From: Algoriphagus hitonicola
Lineage (GTDB): Bacteria > Bacteroidota > Bacteroidia > Cytophagales > Cyclobacteriaceae
DNA length: 64,000 nt
Reading direction: 5' to 3'
Assembly: GCF_900113375.1 (NCBI RefSeq)
Contig: NZ_FOPC01000009.1
Location: 1 to 64,000 of the forward strand
Below are positions 4,601 to 33,892 of the stretch, piece after piece. The translations under genes were made by a program, and so were the position numbers. The notes beneath the pieces were generated by a model. The model ran no database searches. It was not told the origin of the DNA and was given only the letters and a program-made list of their open reading frames with translations. Each line of letters starts with the position of its first letter. Position 1 is the first letter of the stretch.

Positions 4601-7185
4601 ATGGGGCTACAGCCACGATAGAAGGAGGAGGCGAACCGGATATTGACAGCTATTTCTGGACGATTACCCGTGATGACGGGACCGTAATCCTAGATAATTT
4701 TGGAGGTCCGGGAGATCAATTCCAAAATCTGGAGCAGATCTTTGACGAGCCCGGGATATACACCGTAAATCTCAATGTGACCCGATGTGCTACGGAAGAC
4801 TATTTTGATGAAGATATCGAAATTGAAGTGGTCGCTCCTCCGACTTTAACCTTGGAATCGGATGTGACCTTATGCGCTGAAGAGCCCGTTACTTTAACTG
4901 CCATCGAAGGATATGATCCAGCCGAGGAATTGTATGATTTTCAGTGGACCAATGCAGCCGGACAAATTTTAGGAGATGAAAATTCAAATAGCATCACGGT
5001 AACTGAAGAAAGTATTTATAGCGTTTCAGTTTCCTATCGGCTACCAGAAGACTTGACAGATGAAGAAGCCTTGCTTTTTGAAACTTGCCCAGCTGAGGCG
5101 GAAGTTTTTGTCGGTCCGGCTTTTGAGTTTGACATCAATCAAGATGCCCAAGAGGTATGTTATGAGGAAGTTTTGGTGACTTTCGCTCCTGATACTCCAT
5201 TGAGCGGTCAGTGGGAATACGAACTTAATCAGGATGGAAACCGGGTAAGTTTGGGTGAATTTTTCGAATTGGAGCTATGGGTAAATAATCTTCCCGGGCC
5301 GGGTGATTATGAGATTTATTTCCTAGCCGAAGATCCAATTTTAGAAGGCTGTACGATTGAAAAAAGGATGGAATTAAGAGTCAATGAATTACCTGCCTTG
5401 ACCACTACCCCATTAAATCCGGCTACCGATTGTAGTACTGCCGATGGAAGTTTTGAAATAGAAATGCAGGCAGATGCCGACGAGGTATTAATCGTAGAAA
5501 CAGGAGAAACATTCACCAGTGTGAACGCCGGTGAAATATTTTCAATCACCGGTTTACTTCCAGGAAATTACACAGTTGAGGCGAGCAACTCGGCAGGATG
5601 TACTTTTACATCGACTGGATCAGTAGAAAACCTCAATCCACCATCAGGTTTTGAATTTACTGTAACCCCTATTGATGAAACTTGCGATGCGAATGGTGTG
5701 GCATCCGGAGCCATTCAGCTTGATTTTACGGCTGGAGTTCCAGTTTCAGGAACGGTTGAGATCCTCAGTCAGGGAGATGGGCAAGTTTATACAGTAGACT
5801 TCACTGATCAAACCAGCATTCAAGTTCCAGTGCTTGATGGCAGCTACACTGTGGAGGTAATCGCAGCCGGATGTGCGATTCCAGATCCAGATACCTATCC
5901 TGTCGGCGACATTCAGCCGGTTCAGTTTTCGGTACCTTTGCAACTCGAAGCTTGTGAAAGTTTTACCTTTTCTCCCGAGTTTGAAGACAGTGACTTGATC
6001 TTTGAGTTGACTTTCGAAGATGGCAGTATAGTCGATCCTATCGATGCCGCGACTTGGGAATACACGCTTACGCAAAGTGGTTCTTATTCGATGGTAGCCA
6101 CCGATCCCGATGGAGTCGACTGTCCTAGGGAGCGGACCTTCGCGTTGGATATTACGGGGCCATTGGATTATGAAGTGTCAAATCCAATCGTAGACTGTCA
6201 GGAAGGCGTTCGGTATGAAGCTATTCTCAACAATGCCAACCCGGATGAAGTCACCTTCCTTTGGAGAGATAATTTGGGGGTAATAGTAGGTAGAAGACAA
6301 ACCTTTACTCCATCCGTCGAAGGAGATTATACCTTGGAAGTTCAGCGAAATACAGGCGGATTATGCACTAGCCCAGAGATCCCATTTTCTGCGATTACAC
6401 TCACAGAGGATGTTGATGTCAGTTTGGATTTGGTTCCTTTTTGTGGGGATTTAGTATCTACTACCATAACTGTTGATGCAGATTTGGACACCGTGGAAGG
6501 GATCGAATGGTACCGCGTAGAAGGTGGAACTCGAACTCGGATTTTTGAATGGGATGGCCTACCGATTGTTGATGTAGCCAATGAAGGCACCTATGAAGTG
6601 GTTTTGCGAAGTGAAGCAGGATGTGATATCGGCAGGGCAAATACCACCGTAATAAAGTCGTCCATCATCGCCCCTATCGTACCCGATGATTTTACCATTT
6701 GTGCGATCGAGGGAGTCACCCAAAGCATTGATCCGGGGGAATATGACAATTATTCCTGGCTACTTAATGGAGAAGAAGTTTCACAAGATGCCATTTTCAC
6801 CCCTACCGATCCGGGAGTTTATGAACTGATCGTTTCAGACAATGTAGGCTGTGAATTTGTGGAATCGTTTGAAGTATTTGAGGATTGTAACCTAAAAGTA
6901 AGCTTCCCCACCGGTGTGGTTTTAGATGATCCGGAGCGGAATTTTATTCTTTATGCCAATGAATACATCGATGAGGCAGAAGTATTTATTTTCAACCGAT
7001 GGGGCGAATTGATTTTCCATTGCGAACATGAAAACCTGGAACCCGCGCAGCCTTTCTGCCCTTGGGATGGACAGTATAACGGAAATTTTGTCCCCAACGG
7101 AACATATGCCGTCGTCGTGAAGTTTACCAGTAGAGATCAAAATAAAACCGAACAAATCACCTCTGCAATAACAATCATTCAGTAA
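1657..7185 (+). CDS. Giant secreted protein with T9SS type B C-terminal domain (adhesin 1)
   Basis: An 1842-aa secreted protein. It begins with a signal peptide (residues 1-31, ending AYSQG). Two propeller-like regions follow, at about 32-375 and 585-960, each opening with a similar motif (EWIFGYCESGG and GIWYFGDGAGL). The remainder is PKD/Ig-like beta modules. The last ~99 residues form a gliding-motility-associated C-terminal domain (FPTGVVLDDPERNF, VFIFNRWGELIF, WDGQYNG, VPNGTYAVVVKF), which is the T9SS type B sorting signal. The expected fate is export by T9SS and display on the cell surface. Residues from about 970 to the end correspond module by module to the next two adhesins. The stop codon overlaps the yaaA start by one base. 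The ligand is unknown; adhesion or gliding is inferred. Confidence 0.9.
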   Translation: MKSKLHSILICLFFTVLSSFLWVGTAISAYSQGFNDNEWIFGYCESGGDNNYLSFGKGTSATVQTLPDGIILDAQSNTVAIDPITGQPLFYSNGSLVYDYNGNVIQGQVGNLNGPIDSRQQVATGFLEYEPDGEKLFYLFYVSPGGQLLYTQIDMNAPGQATGNEPPLGEITEQDQAIGNAQGAILVVKTAASPSYLISFDGGQLISRRLENTAGSFSQTDTENIPFTPKAIIFDPDQEKLILIPENPDEDILVLDFDTASGNFGSAEAISQSGGSENIEGASFSPDGNFIYFSRGNQLFRVPSNDLAATPEEIPLDPQPSSIYDLKFGPDGQLYYIYEETDGGPQLIGRVTNPEEEDLTLIDVEEDPFTGTDFCGTVFPTFGPNADISASVDFTWQPEEPCANNPIQLTSEITPENYQPVSFNWEFSPPLTDSDGNPVPADYNQEHFLVPADAATGQSINVTLTVEFADGSNSTDSNSITLTENNLEANFTPQDTTICEGQCVDIGALLEAQNTAGQQDGEAPPTGGGDNYEYFWSNYKEEGWTSRQENEVCLPGTYWALVREPGSSCYAYAEINVKVWDLQDQSNGIWYFGDGAGLNFNPDPDDPNAPTPRPIESPHPQDIPAGTTTITDSSGEVLFFTDGESVWDLNGQLMANGDSIGGSNDASQSVIAIGVPNEQTLFYLFTTQTTADGNNEVRYSLVDIKSENPTGVGNVVSKDNFLFSPSTEQSAAFANGDTTWVVFHELGNNTFRAYPVSQEGIGQPILSSVGSNHGFNSGVGSMKFSPEGDQLAVTISEGGCNRLEIFDFDADTGELTEYALLDLGCDGEVYGLEFSDSGEKIFVSYRNGGPGIEEFNIKPVENDDPDATSCPACFDNADTADQRESCILSTRNAISGTGSLDLGALQIGPDGNVYAAVVGSNQIGQIAVGSGCNATSTFNQDSVEPMPGTTNLGLPAFAQNSGSSIPEPSLVAPERLCLDPEDGATATIEGGGEPDIDSYFWTITRDDGTVILDNFGGPGDQFQNLEQIFDEPGIYTVNLNVTRCATEDYFDEDIEIEVVAPPTLTLESDVTLCAEEPVTLTAIEGYDPAEELYDFQWTNAAGQILGDENSNSITVTEESIYSVSVSYRLPEDLTDEEALLFETCPAEAEVFVGPAFEFDINQDAQEVCYEEVLVTFAPDTPLSGQWEYELNQDGNRVSLGEFFELELWVNNLPGPGDYEIYFLAEDPILEGCTIEKRMELRVNELPALTTTPLNPATDCSTADGSFEIEMQADADEVLIVETGETFTSVNAGEIFSITGLLPGNYTVEASNSAGCTFTSTGSVENLNPPSGFEFTVTPIDETCDANGVASGAIQLDFTAGVPVSGTVEILSQGDGQVYTVDFTDQTSIQVPVLDGSYTVEVIAAGCAIPDPDTYPVGDIQPVQFSVPLQLEACESFTFSPEFEDSDLIFELTFEDGSIVDPIDAATWEYTLTQSGSYSMVATDPDGVDCPRERTFALDITGPLDYEVSNPIVDCQEGVRYEAILNNANPDEVTFLWRDNLGVIVGRRQTFTPSVEGDYTLEVQRNTGGLCTSPEIPFSAITLTEDVDVSLDLVPFCGDLVSTTITVDADLDTVEGIEWYRVEGGTRTRIFEWDGLPIVDVANEGTYEVVLRSEAGCDIGRANTTVIKSSIIAPIVPDDFTICAIEGVTQSIDPGEYDNYSWLLNGEEVSQDAIFTPTDPGVYELIVSDNVGCEFVESFEVFEDCNLKVSFPTGVVLDDPERNFILYANEYIDEAEVFIFNRWGELIFHCEHENLEPAQPFCPWDGQYNGNFVPNGTYAVVVKFTSRDQNKTEQITSAITIIQ

Positions 7186-16224: not shown

Positions 16225-16301
16225 TGGTGACCTCGTCAGGATTCAAACCTGAAACCTCCTGAGCCGTAATCAGGTGCTCTATTCAGTTGAGCTACGAAGC
16301 C
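16225..16301 (-). tRNA. tRNA-Arg(ACG), left copy, with encoded CCA
   Basis: On the minus strand the sequence folds as a complete tRNA: acceptor GGCTTCG/CGAGGTC (two G-T pairs), D-arm GCTC/GAGC, anticodon stem CCTGA/TCAGG with loop TTACGGC (anticodon ACG), T-arm TCAGG-TTTGAAT-CCTGA, discriminator A at 16228 and CCA at 16227-16225. A terminator follows. Upstream (to the right) lies element DNA without a recognisable TAnnTTTG promoter, so this copy may be silent or weakly transcribed. Confidence 0.9.
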
Positions 16302-16306
16302 ATTTC
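16227..16306. repeat. Left 80-bp direct repeat (attL) of the integrated element
   Basis: These 80 bases are identical to 33813-33892. They cover the whole mature tRNA-Arg, five bases upstream of it and the first C after the discriminator. The sequences diverge at once on both sides. This is the left attachment site of the element. Confidence 0.92.
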
Positions 16307-16473: not shown

Positions 16474-17748
16474 ATGGCATCGCAAGATACACAGGTCACA
16501 CTCACACTTCAAAGCTGGAAGCCCACCAAAAGTGGAGACTTCCCCGTAGTCATCAAAGTCTACCACCAACAGAAACGACGGTACTACAGAACCGGAATTT
16601 CTGTACAGCCCAAAAACTGGGACGAACCCACCTCTCAAATAATCAAACCCGCCAGAGACAACAAGGTGGTGCAGAAACTTCTCCACAAAGCGAAAGAAAC
16701 CGTGGAGAAAATCCTCATCCTCCATGATGAGTTTGACTTCGATCTCTTCTCCAAAGAGTTTTCAGATTCTTCACCGCTCCAGTCGGGAGAGAACTTCATT
16801 TCCTTCTGGGAAACGGTCGTCAAGGAACTTCGTGCCGAAAAAAGAATGGGCACTGCAGCGTCCTATGAAAATGCGCTCAACAAATTCAAGAAGTTCATGA
16901 AAGAGCGCCCCATTCCGATCCGACACATTACACAGCACACCTTTGAGAAGTTTCGGATTTTCATGGTCAACTCAGGACAAACCACCAACGGCATCGGGAT
17001 TTATCTGCGTTCCATGTCTGCCGTCTATGGCAGAGCGATCAGCAGGAAACTGGTCAAACCCGAGTCCGATCCAAGACAGGGCTTCAAAATCAAATCCGCT
17101 CGAACTCCCAAAAAAGCGATCAAACAGGAGGAAATGAAAAAGCTAGCCCTTGTAAACCTCAGCAAAACACCCTTCATGGATGAATCCAGAGACATGTTTG
17201 TGTTTTCTTACTACTGTCAGGGGATGAACTTCAAGGACATGTGCGAGCTGCGCTGGGACAAAAATATCATAGACGATCGGATCTTTTATTCTCGCGGAAA
17301 GACACTGGACTTTTTCACCATTCGCATGATCCCACGTGCCCACGGAAGGATTCTTGCTAAACAGCGCAGAATTCTTGATGAAAAACTGGAAGCTGGTCTG
17401 ATCAAGAACGAGACTGCCAAAAAGCTCATTTTCCGAGTCTTTGATCACTTGACAGATAAACAGATGGAGAACCTGACTCTCCTCAACAAGGTGAGAAAGC
17501 AGCGAGCCAAAGTCATCAATGCACACATCCGGAAGCTGGCCGAAGCTCACTTGAAATACGATTCAGGCCAGGTGAAGTTACTGACCTTTTACTCGGCCCG
17601 GCATACCTATGCCACCGTGCTCATGAAGCATAATGCTCCGATCTCACTGATATCTGCAGCGCTTGGACATGCTGATACCAGAATCACTCAGGTATATCTC
17701 GACAGTTTTTCCAGCTCTGAAATAGACCGAGCTAATGAGGTGCTTTGA
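16474..17748 (+). CDS. Tyrosine recombinase (site-specific integrase)
   Basis: A 424-aa integrase with an N-terminal arm-binding domain (about 8-75), a SAM-like core-binding domain (about 105-200) and a C-terminal catalytic domain (about 215-424). Visible catalytic elements are the beta-hairpin Lys in SRGKT (about 275), SARHTYATVL (box II Arg), LGHADTRITQ (His) and the nucleophile Tyr in VYLDSF near the end. At the place where the first catalytic Arg is expected (YYCRGMNF in relatives) the sequence is YYCQGMNF, with Gln at residue 249. The gene reads inward from the left repeat, the usual place for the enzyme that integrates and excises its own element at the tRNA. Confidence 0.9.
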   Translation: MASQDTQVTLTLQSWKPTKSGDFPVVIKVYHQQKRRYYRTGISVQPKNWDEPTSQIIKPARDNKVVQKLLHKAKETVEKILILHDEFDFDLFSKEFSDSSPLQSGENFISFWETVVKELRAEKRMGTAASYENALNKFKKFMKERPIPIRHITQHTFEKFRIFMVNSGQTTNGIGIYLRSMSAVYGRAISRKLVKPESDPRQGFKIKSARTPKKAIKQEEMKKLALVNLSKTPFMDESRDMFVFSYYCQGMNFKDMCELRWDKNIIDDRIFYSRGKTLDFFTIRMIPRAHGRILAKQRRILDEKLEAGLIKNETAKKLIFRVFDHLTDKQMENLTLLNKVRKQRAKVINAHIRKLAEAHLKYDSGQVKLLTFYSARHTYATVLMKHNAPISLISAALGHADTRITQVYLDSFSSSEIDRANEVL

Positions 17749-18642: not shown

Positions 18643-20211
18643 ATGTCCGAAGAACAAAAACGACAGCTGGAAAGCCAACTCTGGGGGATCGCCAACCTAC
18701 TCCGGGGAAAAATCTCCGCTGATGATTACCGGGACTACATCCTCGGCTTTATTTTCTACAAGTACCTCAGCGAAAAGCAATACCTCTACGCCAACAGTCT
18801 CCTGGAGACCGAAGCCGTCAAAGACTATAAACTCCTCAAGGATCCCGAACTGCTGGAAGCCGTCAAGGAGGAATCACTGGACAAGCTCGGCTATTTTTTG
18901 CTACCCAACGAGCTATTTGACGCTATCGCAGCTCGGGGAAATGCAGACACGGAAAGTGAGTCCAACTACATTCTGGAAGACCTCAAAGCCATCCTGAACC
19001 ATATCGAGCAGAGCACCATGGGGACAGCTTCGGAGGAGGATTTCAATGCGCTCTTTGAGGACCTCGACCTGAATTCCACCAAGATCGGTAGAACCGTAGG
19101 TGCACGAAATTCCATCATTTCCCAGATTCTGAACTACCTCAACAAGATCGACTTCAAGCTGGAAGACATTGAGTCTGATGTGCTGGGCGATGCCTACGAG
19201 TTTTTGATCGGTAAGTTTGCCGCTGGTGCGGGGAAATCCGCAGGGGAATTCTACACCCCACAGCAGGTCTCCAAGATTCTGGCAAAGCTGGTTACCACAG
19301 GAAAAAGCCGAATCCGATCGGTTTATGATCCGACCTGTGGCTCTGGATCGCTTTTGCTCCGGGTGGCGAAGGAGGCAGAGGTCGCGGAGTTTTACGGACA
19401 GGAGCTCAACCGCACCACCTACAACTTGGCTCGGATGAACATGATCCTTCACGACGTTCACTTTCGCAACTTCAATATTCAGCAGGAGGATACGCTGGAG
19501 CATCCTCATCATGTGGAGGAGCGGTTTGAGGCGATCGTAGCAAATCCTCCCTTCTCTGCTCACTGGAAGGGAGATGCCAATCCGCTCTATGAAACCGATG
19601 AGCGATTTGCCCGCTATGGACGACTGGCACCCAAGACCAAAGCAGACTTCGCTTTCTTACAGCACATGCTCTTTCAGCTCAGTGACAACGGAATCATGGC
19701 ATCTGTTTTCCCACACGGGGTGCTCTTCCGTGGAGCGGCAGAGGGCACGATACGTGAGTACCTGATCAGGGAAATGAACGCCATCGATGCAGTGATCGGC
19801 CTTCCGGCCAATATCTTCTACGGCACGGGTATCCCGACCTGTATTCTGGTACTGAAGAAGTGCCGGGAGCAAGATGAAAACGTGGTCTTTATCGATGCAA
19901 GTGGAGACGATCACTATATCAAAGTGGGCAATCAAAACGAACTGCGAGATGCCGACGTGGAGCTGATCGTCAACACCTACCGCAATCGGGAGACCATCGA
20001 GAAATACAGCTATGTGGCGACACTTGCCGAAATCGCCGAAAACGACTACAACCTGAACATCCCCCGCTATGTGGACACCTTCGAGGAAGAGGAAGAAATC
20101 GACATCGATCAAGTGGCCGAGGATCTCAGAACGCTGGACTCAGAACTCAAGTCCAACGAAGCCTCCCTGATCGGTTTCTGCAAGCAACTCGGAATCTCAA
20201 CGCCTTTCTGA
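18643..20211 (+). CDS. hsdM: Type I restriction-modification system, DNA methyltransferase subunit HsdM
   Basis: A 522-aa N6-adenine methyltransferase subunit. It begins with the helical HsdM N-terminal domain (about 8-150, with ANLLRGKISADDYRDYILGF), followed by the SAM-dependent catalytic domain: FYTPQQVSKIL, SAM-binding motif I DPTCGSGSL (from residue 229) and catalytic motif IV NPPF (301-304). It works as M2S with HsdS to methylate the target and as part of the R2M2S complex for restriction. The length is usual. It is the first gene of the restriction operon; hsdS follows after a gap of under 90 bp. Confidence 0.96.
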   Translation: MSEEQKRQLESQLWGIANLLRGKISADDYRDYILGFIFYKYLSEKQYLYANSLLETEAVKDYKLLKDPELLEAVKEESLDKLGYFLLPNELFDAIAARGNADTESESNYILEDLKAILNHIEQSTMGTASEEDFNALFEDLDLNSTKIGRTVGARNSIISQILNYLNKIDFKLEDIESDVLGDAYEFLIGKFAAGAGKSAGEFYTPQQVSKILAKLVTTGKSRIRSVYDPTCGSGSLLLRVAKEAEVAEFYGQELNRTTYNLARMNMILHDVHFRNFNIQQEDTLEHPHHVEERFEAIVANPPFSAHWKGDANPLYETDERFARYGRLAPKTKADFAFLQHMLFQLSDNGIMASVFPHGVLFRGAAEGTIREYLIREMNAIDAVIGLPANIFYGTGIPTCILVLKKCREQDENVVFIDASGDDHYIKVGNQNELRDADVELIVNTYRNRETIEKYSYVATLAEIAENDYNLNIPRYVDTFEEEEEIDIDQVAEDLRTLDSELKSNEASLIGFCKQLGISTPF

Positions 20212-20223
20212 TGTGGCAGCAAG

Positions 20224-20270
20224 TGCAAATAAGGAAATCCATATTTGCAGAAAACGGCTTAAGTGCAAAT
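20224..20270. promoter_or_regulatory. Three TGCAAAT boxes before hsdS
   Basis: TGCAAAT occurs at 20224-20230 and 20264-20270, and its inverse ATTTGCA at 20243-20249, so the centres are about 19 and 21 bp apart. The outer two are part of a 13-bp direct repeat (AAGTGCAAATAAG). Even spacing near two helix turns suggests an operator for a dimeric regulator between hsdM and hsdS. No regulator gene can be assigned. Confidence 0.35.
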
Positions 20271-20298
20271 AAGAGTGATCACAAACAAGACATCAATC

Positions 20299-21507
20299 AT
20301 GAGCGAAAACAGAAACGTACCGAAGCTGAGGTTTCCAGAGTTTTCAGATATCTGGTCTGAGAAAAAACTTGGGGAAATTACCGCTAAGATCGGAAGTGGA
20401 AAAACACCAAGAGGCGGTGAGCAAATTTACACGTCTCTGGGAATCCCATTCATCAGAAGCCAGAATGTATTGGATTCAAGGCTAGTGCTTGACGGAGTAT
20501 GTATCCCTACAAACGTTCACGAAGAAATGGCCGGGAGCAAAATACTCCCAAGGGACATTTTGCTCAATATCACAGGTGGTTCAATAGGTCGGAGCTGTGT
20601 CACCCCTGAAGATTTCAAAGAAGGAAACGTCAACCAGCACGTATGCATAATCCGTCTAAAAAAGGATTCTCCAAGCTTTCTTCAGGCTATCCTGAGTTCA
20701 TATCGGGGTCAAAAGCTAATTTTTCAAGGACAAACTGGAAGTGGTCGTGAAGGTCTGAACTTTGAGTCGATAAAAGGTTTCAAAATCTCTTTCCCCTCCC
20801 TCCCCGAGCAGCAAAAGATCGCCGAGTTTCTGACAGCGGTGGACCGGAGAATCGAACTGCTTCAGGCCAAGAAGGAAAAGCTGGAAGCCTACAAAAAGGG
20901 CGTGATGCAAAAGATCTTTTCACAAACTCTGCGCTTCAAAGCCGAGGATGGATCTGAGTTTCCAGATTGGGAGGAGAAGAAGTTGGGGGAGGTTGCTGAT
21001 ATAATTATGGGGCAGTCACCAGATTCAAAATCTTACAATGATGTCCATGAAGGGCTTCCACTTGTTCAAGGAAATGCTGACTTGAAAAACAGAAAGGTTG
21101 AACCCAGACAATGGACATCCTCGCCAACAAAAACAAGCTTGCCAGGAGATATTGTCATGACAGTGAGAGCTCCTGTAGGCTACATTGGATTAAATCACAT
21201 TAAAGCCTGTCTAGGTAGAGGTATTTGCTCGATTACAACCAAAAAATCAAAAACGCTTCAGCCTTTTCTTTTTCAAACTTTGGTGTTCATGGAGCCAAAC
21301 TGGAAGTCCATCGAACAGGGGAGCACTTTTACCGCAGTAAGCAGTTCAGATGTTAAAACCTTTTTGGTAAATCTCCCAACACTTGAAGAGCAGAAAAAAA
21401 TCGTCCAGTTTCTAACAAGCTTGGACCGCAGTATCGAAAACCTAAATCAACAGATCACTCACACGCAGACCTGGAAGAAGGGGCTGCTTCAAAAAATGTT
21501 TGTGTGA
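20299..21507 (+). CDS. hsdS: Type I restriction-modification system, specificity subunit HsdS
   Basis: A 402-aa specificity subunit with two target-recognition domains. Each starts with a W..KKLGEI/V-type motif and ends in a conserved helical spacer (FPSLPEQQKIAEFLTAVDRRI and LPTLEEQKKIVQFLTSLDRSI), so each half reads one part of a bipartite target. The frame extends upstream to a GTG at 20263, but the ATG at 20299 begins the typical N-terminus MSENRNVPKLRFPEF and is preferred. The sequence is intact, without frameshift. The recognition sequence cannot be predicted by eye. Its last codons overlap the next gene by four bases (GTGA). Confidence 0.94.
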   Translation: MSENRNVPKLRFPEFSDIWSEKKLGEITAKIGSGKTPRGGEQIYTSLGIPFIRSQNVLDSRLVLDGVCIPTNVHEEMAGSKILPRDILLNITGGSIGRSCVTPEDFKEGNVNQHVCIIRLKKDSPSFLQAILSSYRGQKLIFQGQTGSGREGLNFESIKGFKISFPSLPEQQKIAEFLTAVDRRIELLQAKKEKLEAYKKGVMQKIFSQTLRFKAEDGSEFPDWEEKKLGEVADIIMGQSPDSKSYNDVHEGLPLVQGNADLKNRKVEPRQWTSSPTKTSLPGDIVMTVRAPVGYIGLNHIKACLGRGICSITTKKSKTLQPFLFQTLVFMEPNWKSIEQGSTFTAVSSSDVKTFLVNLPTLEEQKKIVQFLTSLDRSIENLNQQITHTQTWKKGLLQKMFV

Positions 21508-22691
21508 AAAAAGTGAAAAGACTCAGTGAAACGATATTTGAGGAAAGGCTCACTACTTCTCAGTTGCAGGCACTAGTTGCCTACATTCAACACTCTCTCT
21601 TACCTCAAAGTGAGATAGAGTTAATTTTTTTCTTAAAGGAATTTTACGAAAAATCAACTAACACCTCAAGCAACCGATGGCTTTTTCTTACACTCAGCTT
21701 AGCAGAAGTACTTTCTGAGTTTCTCCCCTATTTCCAGGTTTATAAGGATAGCTTATCAGACTCAAAAATCCGTAAACTAAAACTAGATAGCGAGGACTTT
21801 ATCAACCAGCTTTCCTCAAAGAAAAAGAAGATTGATGTGATCCACCACTTAGAGAGCCTATTGACTACCTCCGCCGAAGAAGTTAGTAACAATAAAGAAG
21901 AAAGCACTCTAACCTACCAAACGGAACCATCTTGGGCAACATCAAAAGTGTATTTTAAAAACAAAGGGCTTGACGAATCAAAACCCTTCATCACTACTAA
22001 TCAGTCCCATAACTGTGTCACCTCCATTTACGACAAAATGCACAAGTCTTGGTATAAGGGTGTACCCATCAGCTATCTATTTCAGTTCGATATAGGGTAT
22101 GTAGAGTGGGCCATCAAAAACATGGAAGACTTCTGTGTTCGAGAGTATGACTTTTTGGTAGAACTTTCCACATTCAACAAGAAAACCTTTGAGATGAAAC
22201 ACATTACTCATGAAACCGTGAGCAACTACCATACAATCTCTCAGCAATTTTCTGATGAGGAGATCCTTGTGGCATTTGGAGGGAAACAATACTTTCGAAA
22301 ACTTGATGTAAAAAGTGCTAATGAAAGCAAACTGAAAGCGCTGGGCTTGGAACCAATACGCCCAAAAATGTTTGAAAGAAGCTACCTTTCCTACAATCGA
22401 TCATCATTTCCGATGCTTAGTGGAGAGTGGGAGTTTGAAGAAGCTTTCCAATCAGCAAAGGGAAGTATGATGGTTCATCTGAAGAAAACCAGCAGTTCCT
22501 ACTCTAGCTTAAACCTTATTGAAGATAAGCTGGGAATGATTGTTAACCTAGGTCCTTTGGCAAGCTTCAAACATGGAAAGGTACTAGAACCGTATAGTTA
22601 CAACCTTTTTACTCCAGGGGAAATAGTGTCCGTTGAAACAACATCCTCTGCAGCAGATAGTTCGGGAAGATACCTGATCAGTAAGAAATAA
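21504..22691 (+). CDS. Unknown protein encoded inside the type I restriction operon
   Basis: A 395-aa soluble protein that starts at a GTG overlapping the hsdS stop (GTGA), so it is translationally coupled to hsdS. Residues 1-115 look helical; a Ser/Glu-rich linker lies near 120-140. Around residue 190-215 is a segment of the form GVPISYLFQFDIGYVEWAIKN, which resembles the short C-terminal module of ExoX-like exonucleases and related proteins; this link is from memory and weak. No catalytic motif is evident. No signal peptide or membrane segment is seen. Base composition is more AT-rich than in hsdM. The tight coupling suggests a job linked to the restriction complex or to the next two genes. 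Confidence 0.7.
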   Translation: MKKVKRLSETIFEERLTTSQLQALVAYIQHSLLPQSEIELIFFLKEFYEKSTNTSSNRWLFLTLSLAEVLSEFLPYFQVYKDSLSDSKIRKLKLDSEDFINQLSSKKKKIDVIHHLESLLTTSAEEVSNNKEESTLTYQTEPSWATSKVYFKNKGLDESKPFITTNQSHNCVTSIYDKMHKSWYKGVPISYLFQFDIGYVEWAIKNMEDFCVREYDFLVELSTFNKKTFEMKHITHETVSNYHTISQQFSDEEILVAFGGKQYFRKLDVKSANESKLKALGLEPIRPKMFERSYLSYNRSSFPMLSGEWEFEEAFQSAKGSMMVHLKKTSSSYSSLNLIEDKLGMIVNLGPLASFKHGKVLEPYSYNLFTPGEIVSVETTSSAADSSGRYLISKK

Positions 22692-22700
22692 CACAGCAAC

Positions 22701-23648
22701 ATGAACAATGAATCAAGTCCCTTAGGATTACTTGAAGCAGAAACTATACTCTACATCAAGCTCGGGCAAGGTGGTGAATTTGTAAAAAAATGCTTCACAG
22801 GAAATCCTCATACAATGAAGCTCGACTATCGGACAGTTCCACATGCTCTTTGTATGGATGGCGACTGGTCGGCTGTACATGAATTTCTTACGAAAGAAGG
22901 CCATTCTGCAAGTACATCAACTAACCACCTGAGGCAAATCCGCTCTTTCTACGAAGAAGGTGAGAGTACTGTTTGGGTGACCTTTCATGACAACAAGCTA
23001 TGGTGGTGTCAAGCTGAAACAGAGATCACCATAGATGAACAAAACATCAAATCAAGGAGGGTGAAAGGAGAATGGTCAGATGAGAATATTGCCGGTGAAA
23101 AACTTTTGTTTGGAAATCTTTCAGGTGAACTTCTGACCACAAAGGCCTACCGTGGAACGATTTGCAAGGTTCCTTCTGAGTATGTCCTCCGCAAAATCAA
23201 TAATCAGTTATCCGGGGATGCCGAAGAAATCAAGACTTTGACTGCAGCACTTCAGACCAAAATTGCGGGCTTGATCCAAAAGCTGTATTGGAACGACCTA
23301 GAGCTGTTCGTTGATTTAGTGTTCAGACAGTCTGGGTGGAGGAGAGTCAGCTACCTTGGAAAACAAGAAAAGACAATCGATCTCGACTTGGAATCCACTG
23401 TCACAGGTGAAAGAGGAGTCGTACAAGTAAAAGCACGGTCTACGCTGGAGGAATTCCGGGCTTATGAAAAAGAGCTTGAGGGGTTTCGAAAAGATTACCA
23501 GAAAGTATTCTACGTTTGCCCTCGTCCTGAAAAAGGATTGCAGAATTTGAAATCTGAAACTGGAACAGTCCTATACTTCAGCGACAAGCTTGCCGAACTT
23601 GCGATTTCAGCTGGGTTGGTGGATTGGTTGATCAAGAAGTGTGGATAG
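22701..23648 (+). CDS. Predicted PD-(D/E)XK nuclease, Mrr-like, with possible N-terminal reader domain
   Basis: A 315-aa protein beginning 9 bp after the previous gene. The C-terminal part (about 190-290) fits an Mrr-like PD-(D/E)XK fold: LELFVDLVFRQSGW, then DLDLES (Asp near 228) and VVQVKA (QxK near 243-245). The middle (about 90-155, STVWVTFHDNKLWWCQAE and the following strands) recalls small base-binding PUA/EVE-like domains that read modified DNA, but this is inference from pattern only. If correct, it would be a modification-sensing restriction enzyme (type IV-like) beside a type I methyltransferase. An alternative is a nuclease activated by its neighbours. Confidence 0.7.
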   Translation: MNNESSPLGLLEAETILYIKLGQGGEFVKKCFTGNPHTMKLDYRTVPHALCMDGDWSAVHEFLTKEGHSASTSTNHLRQIRSFYEEGESTVWVTFHDNKLWWCQAETEITIDEQNIKSRRVKGEWSDENIAGEKLLFGNLSGELLTTKAYRGTICKVPSEYVLRKINNQLSGDAEEIKTLTAALQTKIAGLIQKLYWNDLELFVDLVFRQSGWRRVSYLGKQEKTIDLDLESTVTGERGVVQVKARSTLEEFRAYEKELEGFRKDYQKVFYVCPRPEKGLQNLKSETGTVLYFSDKLAELAISAGLVDWLIKKCG

Positions 23649-23662
23649 CATCTAAAAACCCT

Positions 23663-24190
23663 ATGACAGAAGATATCAAGCAAGAGCAAAAAGAGTTTCT
23701 GAAAGAACAGCTCTGGTCATCTACCATTGGAGCTGCAACAAGCCGGGCGGGTAATATTTATAAGGTCGGAACAACAGGTGAGGACAAGAAAAGCTTCAAG
23801 AAAGCTCTTCACGAGTTTGTGACTGAAATGATCCAAAACCATTATGAGGCCACGACTCTAGATGAACCAACACACCTAAAAAACATAAAAGAGCTCAAAG
23901 AATACACAACACGTTTTGGGTTTGTAAACTTTCGCTTTGGTCATGCACAAAAAGTTTTAAACCTTTACCTCAAGTACCTTTGGTGCCTCGGATTAGTCCA
24001 GGAACCACCTCACTTTCCGGTTGACAGACTGATTCAACAAAAAATGAAGATCAAGAATCCCACAAACTGGACAAAAAACATGGAAGAAGATGATTACATC
24101 AAAGTGATCGAAGAAGCTCGAATCCTAGCGACAAGAGAAAACTTTAAATCAATCGCCGCTTTAGAACTGAGTTTCTACAACAACTTGTGA
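23663..24190 (+). CDS. Unknown small protein, third gene of the hsdS-hsdR insert
   Basis: A 175-aa basic, mainly helical protein. The frame is open upstream into the preceding gene, but the ATG at 23663, 14 bp after that gene's stop, is the natural start. A recognisable feature is the segment FRFGHAQKVLNLYLKYLWCLG followed by PPHFPVDRLI (about residues 94-130) and NWTKNMEEDDYIKVIEEAR. I have the impression of similar stand-alone unknown proteins in other bacteria but cannot name a family. There is no signal peptide. It ends the close-packed three-gene group; a 160-bp gap follows. Confidence 0.68.
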   Translation: MTEDIKQEQKEFLKEQLWSSTIGAATSRAGNIYKVGTTGEDKKSFKKALHEFVTEMIQNHYEATTLDEPTHLKNIKELKEYTTRFGFVNFRFGHAQKVLNLYLKYLWCLGLVQEPPHFPVDRLIQQKMKIKNPTNWTKNMEEDDYIKVIEEARILATRENFKSIAALELSFYNNL

Positions 24191-24225
24191 AACGCAACGA
24201 AGAGCTAATAAATCAAACTTCTCCT

Positions 24226-24248
24226 GTTTAAACACCGTTGGTTTAAAC
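24226..24248. promoter_or_regulatory. Pair of GTTTAAAC palindromes
   Basis: The 8-bp palindrome GTTTAAAC occurs at 24226-24233 and 24241-24248, 15 bp apart, about 105 bp before the antitoxin-like gene. Antitoxins often bind such palindromes in their own promoters, so an autoregulatory operator is plausible but unproven. Confidence 0.35.
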
Positions 24249-24352: not shown

Positions 24353-24589
24353 ATGTCAGTGGTAAAACTCAAAGCCCAGCTTATCAAGTTGGTCGAGGAT
24401 ATTCAAAATGAGGAACTCCTCGAATCGCTGATTGAATTCCTCTCCAAGCAAAATCAACAATCGGCAGGAAAGCCCCTATGGGAGGATCTTAGCGAGAGGC
24501 AGAAGCAGGATGTACTGGACAGCTTCGATGAATCCGAAAAAGAGGAAAACCTCATAGAAGTAGAAAATCTCTTCCGACACCTCATGTAA
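24353..24589 (+). CDS. Antitoxin-like small protein without an intact toxin partner
   Basis: A 78-aa acidic protein. Its C-terminal pattern (LWEDLSERQKQDVLDSFDESEKEENLIEVE) resembles antitoxins of RelE/ParE-type modules in Bacteroidota, in which a coiled N-terminal part binds DNA or dimerises and the C-terminal part wraps the toxin. No intact toxin gene follows. A short frame just downstream (starting about 24593, VVTKSAFNRFHKLFGYLA then stop) could be the broken start of one. It sits between the three unknown genes and hsdR, so it may be a decayed addiction module or a solitary regulator. Confidence 0.6.
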   Translation: MSVVKLKAQLIKLVEDIQNEELLESLIEFLSKQNQQSAGKPLWEDLSERQKQDVLDSFDESEKEENLIEVENLFRHLM

Positions 24590-24853
24590 GAGGCGTAGTT
24601 ACCAAATCAGCTTTCAACCGCTTCCATAAGCTGTTTGGCTACTTGGCTTAAGAGAAGAGTGATCCAACCACCACTCAGTTTTGTAAAAGAGCCGAAGGTT
24701 TTGCTTCGTCAAGTTTCTGAAAAGCCACGGCTTTGACTTTTTCTCGATTTCCCGTCGAAACTTGTAGCTGTTCACTAAAATTAGCATCTTAGGGCCAACA
24801 AAACCTGAGTAGCATACCATAAGATCTGCTCTCGGGTCGTTTTTTTAGCTTTC
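24590..24853. other. Gene-free stretch before hsdR
   Basis: 264 bp without a convincing gene. It holds the possible toxin remnant near 24593-24650, and a stretch with self-complementary segments (GAAGGTTTTGCTTC, and AGCCG/CGGCT around 24690-24735). No clear promoter for hsdR is visible. Confidence 0.4.
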
Positions 24854-27724
24854 ATGACCATACAACCGGAACAGACCCTAGAAAACAATCTTGTAGTCCA
24901 GCTGGAAGAGCTGGGGTACAAAAAAGTCCTGATCAGAGACGAGAAAGACCTGCTCGCAAATCTCAAAAAGCAGGTGGAGGCTCACAACAAGGAACAGCTC
25001 AGTGAGAAGGAATTCACTCAGATCCTCAACTTCATCAACAAGGGCAATGTCTTTGAGCGGGCCAAGCTTCTCAGAGATCGGGTTCCCTACCTAGACGACA
25101 AGGGCGAACATCGAACCGTTGAGCTGATCAATCAGATCCACTGGTGTCAGAATCAGTTTCAGGTCACCCAGCAGATTTCCATGGAGGGCAAGTACAAAAA
25201 CCGCTACGATGTCACCCTCTTGGTCAATGGGCTGCCGCTGGTTCAAATCGAACTGAAGCGTAGAGGGCTGGAACTGAAAGAAGCTTTCAACCAAACCAAG
25301 CGCTACGGGATTCATTCATTCGGCTCAGGCCAAGGGCTTTTCCAGTTCATTCAGATCTTCGTCATCAGCAACGGGGTCAACACGAAGTACTACGCCAACT
25401 CATCCATGAATGAGCGGGATTTCAAACAGACTTTTTATTGGACGACTCCAAAAAATCAGCTGATCACCCAGCTCTCAGCTTTTGCTGATATTTTCCTGGA
25501 GCGATGCCACATCGCCAAGATGATCACCAAGTACATCGTGCTCAACGAATCCAACAAGTCACTGATGGTGCTCCGCCCCTATCAGTATTATGCGGTGGAG
25601 GCTTTGGTAGAGCGAGTCAAGACTACCAGCAAATTCGGATACATCTGGCACACGACGGGTTCAGGAAAAACATTGACTTCCTTCAAAACAGCCCAAATCC
25701 TGACCAATCTCCCCGAGGTCTACAAAGTCGTTTTTGTGGTGGACCGAAAAGATCTCGACACGCAGACGATCACAGAATTCAACAGCTTCAGCAAAGGGAG
25801 CATCGACGGAACCAACAACACCCAAACGCTGGTCAATCAACTTGCCGGAGACAACAAATTAATCGTCACTACCATCCAAAAGCTGAACACGGCTGTCTCG
25901 AAAACAAGGCACCTTGACAAAATCAAGCACCTTCAGGACAAGCGCATCGTTTTCATTTTCGACGAATGCCACCGAAGCCAGTTTGGGAAGACCCACGAGG
26001 AAATCAAAAACTTTTTCCATGGCTCTCAGATGTTTGGTTTCACCGGGACTCCGATCTTCGAAAAGAATGCAGGATCCAACAATTACGGCAAGCGGACAAC
26101 CACCATGCTCTTCGGGGACTGTCTCCACAAGTATGTGATCACGGATGCCATCCGAGACGACAATGTGCTCAAGTTCTCCGTGGAGTACATCAGCACTTTC
26201 AAAAAAAAGGAACACATCCTGGACATCAACGTGGAGGCAATTGACGAGGAGGAAGTCATGCGAGCTCCCCAACGACTCGAAAATATCGTGGAGTACATCT
26301 TGGAAAACCACCGAAGAAAAACCCACAACAAAGAGTTTACCGCCATATTCTGCGTGCCGAGTGTACCCGTCCTCATCGACTACTATCAGATCTTTCACGA
26401 GAAAAAAGTACAGGGGCTACACGACCTCAAAGTAGCCACGATCTTTTCATACGGTGCCAATGTAGACTTGATTGAAGACGGTGGATTTGAAAACGACTGG
26501 GAGGAAGGCGATTTCCCCATGGCTGCTGATCAAGAGCGAGAGCTCTACCCTACCCTTGGACAAAAGCATCCCAGAGAATACTTGGACGAGTTCATAGGCC
26601 ACTACAACTCCGAGTTTGGCACCAACTATTCCACCAAAGACAGCAAGCTCTTCTACCAGTACTACAACGACGTAGCCAAGCGGGTGAAGAAAAAGCAGGT
26701 GGATATCCTTTTAGTAGTGAACATGTTTCTCACAGGCTTTGACAGCAAAACGCTGAACACGCTGTACGTGGACAAAAACCTGAAATATCACGGTTTGATC
26801 CAAGCTTATTCCCGCACCAACCGAATCAAGGGCGACCTCAAATCCCAGGGGAATATCGTCTGCTTCAGAAATCTGAAAGATGCGACCGATGAAGCCATCA
26901 CACTTTTCTCAAATATCGAGGCAAAGGATGAAATCATCCTTGAACCCTACGAGGACTACGTGGAGAAATTCAACGAAGCTTTTATTAATCTCCTGAAAAT
27001 CACACCCACTGTAAATAGCGTCAATAAACTCCCGAGCGAAGTGGAGGAAATGGAGTTTATCAAAGCTTTTCGGGAGCTGATGCGTCTGAAAAACGTGATG
27101 ACAACCTACACCGAGTTCAGTTTTGAAGATTTGGCAATGCCAGAGCAGACCTTTGAAGACTACAAGAGCAAATACCTCGATCTCTACGACAAAGCCAAAG
27201 GTCATAATCAAAAAGAGAAGGTTTCGATTCTCTCAGACGTGGACTTCGAGCTGGAACTGATCCATCGTGATGAAATCAATGTGGCCTATATCATCAAGCT
27301 CCTCGCCAAACTGAAGGATGCACCGGAAGAGGAAAAAGAAAAACAGCAGAAAGCCATCGTTGACCTGATGGTGGGAGAGTCACAGCTGAGAAGCAAGCGC
27401 GAACTGGTGGAAAAATTCATACGCGAGCATTTACCACAGATCGAGGACTCAGCTCAAATCCCTGATGAGTTTGCCGATTTCTGGACCAAAGAACGGATTG
27501 AAGCTGTTCGAAAACTCAGCGAAGAAGAAGGACTCGAATCTGAGCAGTTGGAAGAGATCATTTCACGCTACATCTACACCGAGAAAGAACCCCTCCGAGA
27601 CGAGGTGGTATCCATCATGAAGGCTAAGCCCAGCCTCTCAAAAAGAAAAACCACAGCCGAGCGGGTGATTGGAAAAATCGTGGACTTCGTGGAGACTTTT
27701 ATCAGTGGGATAGCGGCTGCTTAA
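24854..27724 (+). CDS. hsdR: Type I restriction-modification system, restriction/translocase subunit HsdR
   Basis: A 956-aa subunit that translocates DNA and cuts it when the target is unmethylated. The N-terminal PD-(D/E)XK nuclease is visible as D119 (RYDVTLL), E133 and K135 (QIELKRRG). The SF2 motor follows: Walker A TTGSGKTLTS (G269-T273), DECH box from D370 (FIFDECHRSQF), FGFTGTP (motif III) and YSRTNRIKG (motif VI region). The C-terminal helical region (about 780-956) binds HsdM. All key residues are present and the frame is intact. In common hsd loci hsdR is next to hsdM/S; here it is separated from hsdS by more than 3.3 kb. Confidence 0.96.
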   Translation: MTIQPEQTLENNLVVQLEELGYKKVLIRDEKDLLANLKKQVEAHNKEQLSEKEFTQILNFINKGNVFERAKLLRDRVPYLDDKGEHRTVELINQIHWCQNQFQVTQQISMEGKYKNRYDVTLLVNGLPLVQIELKRRGLELKEAFNQTKRYGIHSFGSGQGLFQFIQIFVISNGVNTKYYANSSMNERDFKQTFYWTTPKNQLITQLSAFADIFLERCHIAKMITKYIVLNESNKSLMVLRPYQYYAVEALVERVKTTSKFGYIWHTTGSGKTLTSFKTAQILTNLPEVYKVVFVVDRKDLDTQTITEFNSFSKGSIDGTNNTQTLVNQLAGDNKLIVTTIQKLNTAVSKTRHLDKIKHLQDKRIVFIFDECHRSQFGKTHEEIKNFFHGSQMFGFTGTPIFEKNAGSNNYGKRTTTMLFGDCLHKYVITDAIRDDNVLKFSVEYISTFKKKEHILDINVEAIDEEEVMRAPQRLENIVEYILENHRRKTHNKEFTAIFCVPSVPVLIDYYQIFHEKKVQGLHDLKVATIFSYGANVDLIEDGGFENDWEEGDFPMAADQERELYPTLGQKHPREYLDEFIGHYNSEFGTNYSTKDSKLFYQYYNDVAKRVKKKQVDILLVVNMFLTGFDSKTLNTLYVDKNLKYHGLIQAYSRTNRIKGDLKSQGNIVCFRNLKDATDEAITLFSNIEAKDEIILEPYEDYVEKFNEAFINLLKITPTVNSVNKLPSEVEEMEFIKAFRELMRLKNVMTTYTEFSFEDLAMPEQTFEDYKSKYLDLYDKAKGHNQKEKVSILSDVDFELELIHRDEINVAYIIKLLAKLKDAPEEEKEKQQKAIVDLMVGESQLRSKRELVEKFIREHLPQIEDSAQIPDEFADFWTKERIEAVRKLSEEEGLESEQLEEIISRYIYTEKEPLRDEVVSIMKAKPSLSKRKTTAERVIGKIVDFVETFISGIAAA

Positions 27725-27834: not shown

Positions 27835-29865
27835 ATGTTTGATATTAAGACCAACGATTTGATAGTCTCAGAATCAGGAAACACACTAACTATCAAAACC
27901 GTAAATCCAAAAACAGGTAAAAACACAAAGCTCTCAGAGGCCTTAAACTTTCTTCCGTCAGGAATCATCTACAAAGCTGAAACCGGAATGGGAGCAACAA
28001 CGCTGGAGCTTACCAGTTTAAGAAACTCAATCATCGTGGAACCTACAAGAAGTACAGCGTTTCAAAAAGCAAATAACCCAAACAACCCATTCCCAGCGTT
28101 GTATGTCGGATCGGATATCGAAACCAGAAAAGGGATTGAGCCGTCAATGATCAAAAGCTACCTCAGGAGTAAAAATCCCTTCAAAAAGTTTCTTGTAGTC
28201 GCCGAAAGCTTGACCAAACTTATCAAACAAATTCCAACCAAGGAGCTGGGAACATACCACTTTACCATCGATGAATCAGATTCTTTTCAGCTCGATTCAA
28301 CCTTTCGGGATGGTATGGAAAAATGCTTGGACATCTACAAACAGATCGAACCAGAAAGAAGGTCGATGGTTACTGCAACACCACTAGAGTTTACTGACCC
28401 TGAGCTTTTAAATGAACCGAAAATCACTATACGGTATGAGCACGGCAATAAGAGGGATGTTCAACTTTTTGAATGCGACAATGGGTTTGGAGTTCTAGTA
28501 GAGTCAATATTGAAAAAGTTTTCTGGTGACCCTTCGAACTTCGAAAAAGTAGTCATAGCCTTGAACAGTTTATCGTTGATAAACTCTGTGATTGAAGCTA
28601 TTACCGACGACAAGCTTAGTGGAGGGGTTGACATCGCACAGATAAATGTTTTGTGCAGCAGTTCGAGTGAGGCCAAAGTCATAAAATACCATGAGCTAAA
28701 AGGTGAGCATCTACCTGGCTTAGTGACGTTTATTACGTCTGCTTTTTTCACGGGGCTTGATCTTCAGGATAAATTTCACCTTTTCACATATGTTTCATCA
28801 AAAGAGTCTGTCCTTCGGCTTTCTGAGAAGAAAATCAAACAAGTGGCTGGAAGAGGAAGAAACGGACTCTTGTCCGAAACTATCATCTACGAAAGAAAAG
28901 ATATTCCGAAAGGCCCTTTCTTTTCTTTTCATGACTTGAAGGAAGCAGCGGAATCACAACTCCAAAGCCTGAACTGCATTGAGAAAACATACAGTAAAAG
29001 TCCTATCATGAAAGCACGAATCGAAAGTACCTTTAAAGCCATGCTGACAAATGGTGCTGTTGACTCTTCCCGGCTGGTTCGAAAGAATTTAAAAGGTGAT
29101 TATTCGGTGTCCTTTTTAAATATCGACGCCTTACTTGAGTACTCACGAGTTGCAAAAACTGTTTATCATCCCAAAAACGGGCTTGCCGAAGCGCTTCGAA
29201 CTAGTGGATGTGTAGTGAATATTTCTCAAAAACATTCGGCTTTAACCCCCAGCGAAACTGACACGCATATAGCGAAATTGGCTTCTACCGAAAAGAAAAA
29301 ACTGATAACGCTGCTCTACAATATCGCGAAAAGGAAAATGAGCTTTGAGGAAGCTTATGAGGAACAAGCCACAACAAAGGCTGTGGTATTAGGGCTGAGT
29401 ATCTTTGAAAAGTTCAGGAAATACATCGATGAAGATGTATTGATTGAAGCCATTTCAAAAACCCTTAGCAAAGAGAGATCTGGCACATCAGTTAGAAACC
29501 TGAAAAGGTTAGAAACCAAATTGGATTTCGCCATCCAAGATCCGACAACTGGTTTCCTAAAAGAGCTTTTTCAGAAAATTCCACTTTCACCCGAAAAAGG
29601 TGTTTGGTACTCCAACGATGACCTGATCCATAAGTATCAACAAGCCGCTGCAATTTCTGGAAAACTGATACCACCAGGAACGAAGGAAGACGTGGAGAAA
29701 ATGATTCTTGAGGACATCAAGGCCATATTTGAAACAAGATCAAGTAACAATAATGAGCGGGATGGTTATTATCTGAAAGGAAGAAAGATCGTGGAAGGTC
29801 TTCCGGCTGGTTTAAAAAAGTACTTTTTCCCCGGTTTTGCAGCGGAAGATTACATCCCTGATTAA
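27835..29865 (+). CDS. SF2-helicase-like protein with altered P-loop
   Basis: A 676-aa protein with an N-terminal half that follows the SF2 helicase order: a P-loop-like segment ETGMGATT (T50-T56), DESD (146-149) as the DExD box, TATP (180-183) as motif III and QVAGRGR (336-342) as motif VI. In the P-loop the invariant Lys is replaced by Ala54, so ATP hydrolysis would be impaired or done differently. The C-terminal half (about 370-676) is helical and unknown. Similar GATT-type proteins occur, as I recall, in Bacteroidota phages and mobile elements without known function. Possible roles are replication initiation of the element or DNA remodelling in defence. It lies 110 bp after hsdR on the same strand. 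Confidence 0.65.
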   Translation: MFDIKTNDLIVSESGNTLTIKTVNPKTGKNTKLSEALNFLPSGIIYKAETGMGATTLELTSLRNSIIVEPTRSTAFQKANNPNNPFPALYVGSDIETRKGIEPSMIKSYLRSKNPFKKFLVVAESLTKLIKQIPTKELGTYHFTIDESDSFQLDSTFRDGMEKCLDIYKQIEPERRSMVTATPLEFTDPELLNEPKITIRYEHGNKRDVQLFECDNGFGVLVESILKKFSGDPSNFEKVVIALNSLSLINSVIEAITDDKLSGGVDIAQINVLCSSSSEAKVIKYHELKGEHLPGLVTFITSAFFTGLDLQDKFHLFTYVSSKESVLRLSEKKIKQVAGRGRNGLLSETIIYERKDIPKGPFFSFHDLKEAAESQLQSLNCIEKTYSKSPIMKARIESTFKAMLTNGAVDSSRLVRKNLKGDYSVSFLNIDALLEYSRVAKTVYHPKNGLAEALRTSGCVVNISQKHSALTPSETDTHIAKLASTEKKKLITLLYNIAKRKMSFEEAYEEQATTKAVVLGLSIFEKFRKYIDEDVLIEAISKTLSKERSGTSVRNLKRLETKLDFAIQDPTTGFLKELFQKIPLSPEKGVWYSNDDLIHKYQQAAAISGKLIPPGTKEDVEKMILEDIKAIFETRSSNNNERDGYYLKGRKIVEGLPAGLKKYFFPGFAAEDYIPD

Positions 29866-33812: not shown

Positions 33813-33892
33813 GTGACCTCGTCAGGATTCAAACCTGAAACCTCCTGAGCCGTAATCAGGTGCTCTATTCAGTTGAGCTACGAAGCCATTTC
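33813..33892. repeat. Right 80-bp direct repeat (attR) of the integrated element
   Basis: Identical to 16227-16306 over 80 bases, with immediate divergence outside. It contains the complete mature tRNA-Arg sequence. Confidence 0.92.
33814..33887 (-). tRNA. tRNA-Arg(ACG), right copy, without encoded CCA
   Basis: The same 74-nt tRNA sequence as the left copy, with anticodon ACG and discriminator A at 33814. The next bases read CAA and not CCA, so CCA must be added by the nucleotidyltransferase. A good promoter stands directly upstream (33899-33929), so this is probably the transcribed copy. No T-run terminator follows it in the element. Confidence 0.9.

Follow-up and report, generated by a model that had tools for sequence, protein, structure and literature searches.

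An exchangeable cargo slot in a type I restriction operon of Algoriphagus hitonicola and its predicted Mrr-type nuclease gene

The hsd locus and its genomic island

Three genes, designated A, B and C, lie between the specificity gene hsdS and the restriction gene hsdR of a type I restriction-modification locus in Algoriphagus hitonicola. They are almost certainly one filling of a recombination slot whose cargo is exchanged between genomes. The DNA studied is a 64-kb window (positions 1 to 64,000 of contig NZ_FOPC01000009.1), and gene coordinates are window positions. On the + strand, hsdM (18643-20211), encoding the methyltransferase, is followed by hsdS (20263-21507), gene A (21504-22691; 395 amino acids, GTG start), gene B (22701-23648; 315 amino acids, ATG start), gene C (23663-24190; 175 amino acids, ATG start) and hsdR (24854-27724). 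The hsd genes match both Pfam domains (N6_Mtase, E = 2e-104; Methylase_S, 2e-45; EcoR124_C, 5e-71; HSDR_N, 5e-40) and the PADLOC type I models; with hsdM, hsdS and hsdR all on the + strand, these matches identify a type I restriction-modification locus.

A sequence-only reading of this DNA had placed three genes on one strand between hsdS and hsdR, and its coordinates and spacing are correct: A overlaps hsdS by 4 bases (21504-21507), and gaps of 9 bp and 14 bp separate A from B and B from C. A fourth small open reading frame (ORF) in the gap (24353-24589) was passed over. The cassette was also described as more AT-rich than hsdM and hsdR. This is true of the comparison with those two genes (GC contents of 39.3% for A, 43.8% for B and 40.2% for C versus 51.7% for hsdM and 47.4% for hsdR), but B lies at the window mean (43.0%), which hsdM and hsdR exceed. 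AT-richness is consequently a feeble sign of foreign origin.

Direct tRNA repeats, an integrase-like gene and copies of the tRNA repeat in relatives mark the hsd locus as part of an integrated genomic island of ~17.6 kb between duplicated tRNA-Arg(ACG) genes. The direct repeat is 96% identical over 90 nt, the first 80 being identical, and its copies start 17,586 bases apart, at 16227 and 33813. The left boundary is at 16227-16306 (tRNA gene at 16225-16301, − strand), and the right boundary is at 33813-33892 (tRNA gene at 33813-33887, − strand). The tyrosine-recombinase/integrase-like gene (16474-17748, + strand), named from its adjacency to the tRNA gene and from a reading of its protein, has relatives 58 to 81% identical upstream of hsdM in loci L016, L017, L025 and L064, and the tRNA repeat was seen in additional copies in these four loci and in L018. 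After hsdR, a 676-amino-acid ORF (27835-29865) weakly matches a DEAD helicase (E = 0.005), and a 47% relative of it follows hsdR in L025.

A slot of variable content between hsdS and hsdR

With HsdR as the query, 33 of 194 relatives were matched at an E value of up to 1e-150; at most four candidates were scored per genome, and the resulting counts are lower bounds. At an HsdR identity of ≥55%, the census comprises at least 22 loci from 21 genomes, the genome of the window itself contributing two. Fourteen HsdR matches at ~38 to 44% identity were excluded; in four of these loci (L075 to L078), the sequence ahead of hsdR was read, and the hsdM-hsdS-gap-hsdR order of this family was not seen there. 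Two damaged loci were counted: hsdR of genome G109 is split, its second half (72%) being merged with the first, and that of G025 is interrupted by a single in-frame stop. The limits of each slot were drawn manually on ORF tables, cargo being defined as ORFs of ≥60 amino acids from a simple ORF caller. The small ORFs of L062 and L074 are likely to be remnants, and the choice of start produced overlaps of ~50 bases with hsd genes in L025 and L074.

The gap between hsdS and hsdR is filled with ORFs in 21 of the 22 loci, the exception being G159 (L070), with a gap of 64 bp. A gene of the TIR, Abi_2, GmrSD, PIN, DUF3800, FRG, PD-(D/E)XK or ParE type is present in the gap in 15 of the 21 loci other than the window; for some of these genes, the family comes from a BLAST cluster and not from a domain scan of the protein itself. 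TIR cargo was counted in six loci (four from scans, two from BLAST clusters), Abi_2 in five (each one scanned), GmrSD in three (L017, L025 and L061; one by scan), DUF3800 in three (one by scan) and PIN in three (two by scan), while PDDEXK_4, PDDEXK_3, FRG and ParE were seen in one locus each. Representatives of the cargo match the PADLOC models AbiD (E = 1.5e-74), SpbK (3.2e-45), PDC-S15 (8.9e-55) and PDC-M04A (6.9e-82). No recognized defence-type cargo was found in L059, L062, L068, L069, L070 and L073, the cargo of L059 having a sub-cutoff Abi_C match and a domain like the HsdR C terminus. The proposal that the cassette is an accessory and probably defensive component of the hsd operon is thus well backed by comparison.

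The content of the gap changes between genomes, whereas the flanking genes hsdM and hsdR are conserved. Except where cargo is common to both, DNA similarity to relatives breaks off at the hsdS 3' end and restarts shortly before hsdR. Against L017, which has B and C in common with the window, similarity extends up to 21531, returns at 22918-24232 (B and C) and resumes from 24834. G025 (L064) and the window have in common the flank upstream of the island (69.8% over 1,647 nt), the integrase and the hsd genes, and the cargo of G025 is different, consisting of TIR, PDDEXK_4, a 273-amino-acid protein, a helix-turn-helix-type protein and PIN. The first cargo ORF also overlaps hsdS by 4 bases in L017, L018 and L072, where the first ORFs are different ones, that of L072 being perhaps spurious; the overlap thus belongs mainly to the slot. 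Joint action of the cassette with the type I enzyme, or backing by it, as suggested in the sequence-only reading, is conjectural.

The census is a compact natural series of one HsdR family, one slot and at least a dozen kinds of cargo. The variety of cargo, together with the fact that A, B and C of the window are unmatched in the defence library, makes the slot a promising place for finding defence genes.

Two other arrangements were observed among the slots. The genome of the window has a second hsd locus of the same family (L059; G000:C32), whose slot gene (positions 4905-6047) encodes 380 amino acids; one part of the protein weakly resembles Abi_C, below the cutoff, and its C-terminal part resembles EcoR124_C of HsdR (29.7 bits); as a guess, its product could dock on the type I complex through the HsdR-like part. 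The gaps of L066 and L073 contain inverted hsdS-like pieces and a tyrosine integrase (L066 scanned, L073 by BLAST cluster), an arrangement that probably serves specificity switching by DNA inversion.

Cargo of this kind could also be a passenger or addiction element, with genes that stabilize the island or are neutral insertions and have no part in phage defence. The island is mobile-element-like, and a toxin-antitoxin module adjacent to the cassette looks broken. The fourth ORF of the gap (24353-24589, + strand) encodes an antitoxin-like protein of 78 amino acids, whose relatives in L019, L060 and L062 precede a parE-like toxin gene. Behind it, at 24586-24850 on the + strand, three-frame translation reveals a probable broken parE-like toxin remnant with in-frame stops, for which tblastn gave no match; the toxin is also broken in L019 and L062, and it is intact in L060. 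In addition, C weakly matches the immunity protein TriTu (E = 0.039; 14.3 bits versus a cutoff of 27), probably by chance. In contrast, B and C look to be under purifying selection, with ratios of nonsynonymous to synonymous differences (pN/pS) of 0.19 to 0.23 for B and 0.33 to 0.45 for C, compared with 0.13 to 0.15 for hsdM (three pairs each, with synonymous sites near saturation), and the slot of relatives holds known or candidate antiphage types (AbiD, SpbK-like TIR, PDC-S15 and PDC-M04A). A passenger role is improbable.

Gene B

B is a predicted Mrr-type nuclease by its Mrr_cat match, its active-site residues and its modelled fold; the sequence-only reading had also called one gene of the cassette a predicted nuclease. 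The Mrr_cat match of B is below the Pfam cutoff (17.5 bits versus 21; E = 0.0046), while its homologue in L020 exceeds it (24.0 bits). The B alignment has 10 rows, representing nine distinct proteins 36 to 73% identical to B of the window (the L019 and L026 rows are one protein). All 10 rows match Mrr_cat at an E value of up to 1 (best, 3.5e-5), and D227, E237, Q242 and K244 are invariant in all of them. Two viral homologues retain D227, Q242 and K244, and E237 is lost in that of L099. Against NCBIfam, the alignment gave two weak matches only, each from a single row.

An AlphaFold2 model of B, built with six sequences, has a mean predicted local distance difference test score (pLDDT) of 78.3, with ~90 in the nuclease half and ~40 to 85 in the N-terminal half. 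In VIA-align comparisons, the nuclease half (residues 180 to 315) is closest to AF1548 (Z = 9.7; root mean square deviation [rmsd], 2.8; 107 residues aligned), EndoMS (Z = 9.2; rmsd, 3.0; 96 aligned), AspBHI (Z = 9.1; rmsd, 3.6; 126 aligned) and MspJI (Z = 8.7; rmsd, 3.8; 131 aligned). Foldseek alone gave no match of B in the PDB at an E value of up to 0.001, and there were three matches in a viral library, with template-modelling scores to the query of 0.24 to 0.30. From motif conservation and the modelled fold, B is very likely a PD-(D/E)XK nuclease of the Mrr type, and the structural comparison suggests kinship to modification-dependent enzymes. The N-terminal domain is itself strongly conserved. 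The predicted order of its strands had brought to mind a PUA/EVE-like reader, for which profile and fold searches gave no match.

B occurs in five of the 194 relatives, itself included, and is found at other sites in G064 and G019, both of the genus of the window. In the phylum sample it was found in 5 of 395 genomes, one of these being a fragment with stops. Among 72,556 plasmid records, 116 carry B-like genes, all with <60% identity and 101 from Klebsiella; the 30 plasmid rows listed all give the product as a hypothetical protein. No hsd gene is annotated within 6 kb in three of four plasmid neighbourhoods, the plasmid gene table being incomplete. B-like genes were also found in two IMG/VR viral contigs (L098 and L099). 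A search of the phage collection gave no match for B, and the B-like protein of L099, used as a query on viral contigs, returned only its own contig. In L098, a phage-like contig, the B-like gene (3042-3983) lies among apparent tail and tape-measure genes, named by ORF reading, and is probably a carried gene.

Occurrence on plasmids and in viral contigs, apart from hsd genes, suggests that B works by itself, and it is rather likely that B acts independently of HsdR. This distribution also bears on the idea of a PrrC-like guard, in which a latent toxin would be silenced by HsdRMS and freed once an inhibitor from a phage had put the type I enzyme out of action. Such a guard has a precedent in PrrC, described in two papers (PMC3874165, PMC2610378) as embedded in and silenced by the EcoprrI type I operon, and the overlap of the first cassette gene with hsdS would suit it. 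However, A, B and C have no ABC-ATPase or anticodon-nuclease family among their Pfam, PADLOC and NCBIfam matches, and a B-like gene with no annotated hsd gene within 6 kb on plasmids probably needs no local type I silencer. We regard the guard as hardly probable for this cassette.

Genes A and C

By sequence comparison, A consists of an orphan N terminus and a degenerate ExoX-like domain (residues ~168 to 395). A has a weak, sub-cutoff match to Pfam ExoX-like_C (E = 0.16). It is 18 to 22% identical to the stand-alone ExoX-like slot proteins of three relatives and has an extra N-terminal half. Whole-protein queries with A matched 2 of the 194 relatives, itself included, and none in plasmids or viral contigs, and the N-terminal half had no relative in any of these searches. 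An ExoX-like profile matched 3 of 296 phylum genomes (the window and G064 included, the third weakly). Viral-contig scans with profiles A1, A2 and A5 gave no match; a 43-residue match of profile A6 in two contigs was not used.

C-like genes are present in 7 of the 194 relatives, the window included, and in 5 of 395 genomes of the phylum sample (two weak), and none was found in plasmids, phages or viral contigs. Of eight C-like genes whose neighbourhoods were read, five belong to or adjoin a type I locus: four occupy the slot, and that of G544 lies downstream of another type I hsdR, with one gene in between. A neighbourhood common to two genomes of the genus (L023 and L024) places the C-like gene among proteins of ~177, 109, 300, 178 and 583 to 673 amino acids, their likeness being judged by size and start of sequence, and may be a separate multigene system.

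C is probably an uncharacterized helical protein; its model is all-helical, with a mean pLDDT of 64.6 and a predicted template-modelling score of 0.56, a low confidence at which fold matches were not used as evidence. Like the TriTu match, a sub-cutoff Pfam match to STAG (E = 0.03) was taken as chance. A P-x-D motif after a conserved helix had raised the idea of an HhH-GPD glycosylase, for which Pfam and PDB-profile searches gave no match. HhH-GPD in Pfam was found neither in C nor in five homologues, and hhalign of C against the two HhH-GPD proteins of the same genome gave a probability of <1%, in a comparison run without a positive control. Ogg rows reached a Z of only ~3 with the model, at a pLDDT of 65. 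The OGG family (PF21790) had no match, even in its 14 control genomes, and Ogg-HhH (PF22175) had none in 58 relatives and matched in 3 of 14 controls. The lysine of the P-x-D motif is an arginine in L096. A glycosylase function of C is thus retained as no more than a lead.

None of the three proteins matches PADLOC or NCBIfam. A match to DUF262 (GmrSD_N) was likewise absent from A, B and C at an E value of up to 1, and the same library detects DUF262 in a 594-amino-acid neighbour in L017.

Proposed role of the cargo

The reading that we favour, and consider probable as a whole, is that A, B and C are slot cargo in a type I operon on a tRNA-Arg island and that B is a stand-alone restriction endonuclease. 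The cargo would be transcribed together with the hsd operon, its first gene being translationally coupled to hsdS. The N-terminal domain of B would recognize some property of foreign DNA, with a modified base as the probable one, and the C-terminal Mrr-type PD-(D/E)XK domain would cut the recognized DNA, such that B could catch phages whose modified DNA escapes HsdR, as published for TgvAB. C may assist B, to which it is adjacent in three of the four B loci, or else be independent cargo, and A would be further cargo, either an optional partner or independent. A defensive role of B is probable. Modification dependence, argued from nuclease-fold similarity and precedent because the N-terminal domain is unmatched, is put forward tentatively, as a possibility that may well fail. 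Of the three genes, B is the most useful, being a widespread single gene with a testable endonuclease prediction.

Several observations weigh against this reading. The N-terminal domain of B has no sequence-profile or fold match, the fold comparison having covered residues 187 to 311, in the nuclease half. Rows for RPB5, which is not a nuclease, are only slightly lower (Z = 7 to 8.6) than the nuclease matches in the same comparison of B, which shows that the arrangement of the fold is common. The count of defence-type cargo concerns the slot alone. In the fourth plasmid neighbourhood (L090, Pseudoalteromonas), hsdM and hsdS lie beside the B-like gene. A sigma-70 promoter scan found 14 promoters versus 18.9 expected, i.e., no excess, with a scan ill-suited to Bacteroidota. 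For several phages, TgvAB alone gave 10- to 100-fold less protection than did the complete cluster, a difference that the authors attribute to stoichiometry (PMC11411939). Finally, co-occurrence is more in line with a joint system than with independent cargo: 3 of the 22 loci (window, L016 and L017) have the order ExoX-like...B-C, and the overlap of B and C has a hypergeometric probability of 0.01 for that many or more, in loci that are related and not independent.

Co-occurrence is also the ground for taking A, B and C as one dedicated system, in which the ExoX-like protein, B and C would form a complex and the neighbours in relatives would be separate insertions. The sequence-only reading had likewise regarded the cassette as its best candidate for an undescribed system. 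Within the census, B, C and the ExoX-like domain are each present in four loci. Window, L016 and L017 have all three, the domain being the C-terminal part of A in the window, and the fourth locus is L019 for B, L018 for C and L025 for the ExoX-like domain; B and C are directly adjacent in the window, L016 and L017. The genes thus do recur together at two other hsd loci, and each is also found without the others: B in L019, C in L018 and the ExoX-like domain in L025. Beyond the slot, B occurs on plasmids and viral contigs where C was not found, and C occurs in G047, G053, G114, G150 and G544, which have no B match. Furthermore, an extra gene separates the ExoX-like gene from B in both relatives (a PLD-like protein, sub-cutoff, in L016 and a GmrSD protein in L017), and the low identity of A to the ExoX-like proteins and its extra N-terminal half set it apart from them. 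A, B and C are loosely associated and not an obligatory set. One dedicated system is unlikely, and the claim of a single undescribed system is not upheld as stated: the genes reshuffle singly, B also occurs at sites that lack hsd genes, and the embedding of genes in type I operons has already been published. An elaborated form appears less likely still, in which the ExoX-like protein, B and C would constitute an uncharacterized restriction system. The N terminus of B would be a new DNA-modification reader, C would be a helical partner and process or mark the site so flagged, and the type I operon would act as a platform for exchange, moving the system from island to island along with other effectors.

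Comparison with known systems

Among known enzymes, B resembles the Mrr, MspJI and AspBHI endonucleases, which are modification-dependent, in its PD-(D/E)XK fold and in a D...QxK active site, the QxK being that of MspJI. Enzymes of this type have SRA-like or winged-helix domains, to which the N-terminal domain of B has no match. The PADLOC phage-defence candidate PDC-S02 is matched by 3 of the 10 rows of the B alignment (best E = 6.4e-7), whereas B of the window matches no PADLOC model at an E value of up to 1. Part of the wider family of B may therefore already be listed as a candidate.

The nearest tested precedent for the proposed role of B is TgvAB, two GmrSD-type genes embedded in the type I operon of Vibrio pathogenicity island 2 (VPI-2) of V. 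cholerae (PMC11411939). The TgvAB proteins belong to GmrSD/DUF262, whereas B is predicted to be of the Mrr type and neither A nor C has a match to a GmrSD family; the same slot does hold GmrSD genes in L017, L025 and L061. The rlo genes, described in 2005 work as embedded between hsdR and hsdS (as cited in PMC5183652 and PMC2610378), likewise are cargo within a type I operon. They differ in gene families and phylum, and here the order is M-S-cargo-R inside a tRNA-Arg island. DarTG2 sits between hsdS and hsdR in the RptR island of enteropathogenic Escherichia coli (EPEC) (PMC12255303); it is a toxin-antitoxin pair, whereas A, B and C have no PADLOC match of any kind. A 2024 preprint by Payne et al. 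deals with embedded defences, according to a paper that cites it. Among the titles listed in a survey of the literature, none dealt with an hsdS-hsdR slot in Bacteroidota, most subscription papers and all preprints lying outside its scope.

The embedding of defence genes in a type I operon is thus a published pattern (rlo, PrrC, DarTG2 and TgvAB), and the gene families found here are uncharacterized. The cassette is an add-on of an already described kind, here with a well-documented variable slot in one HsdR family.

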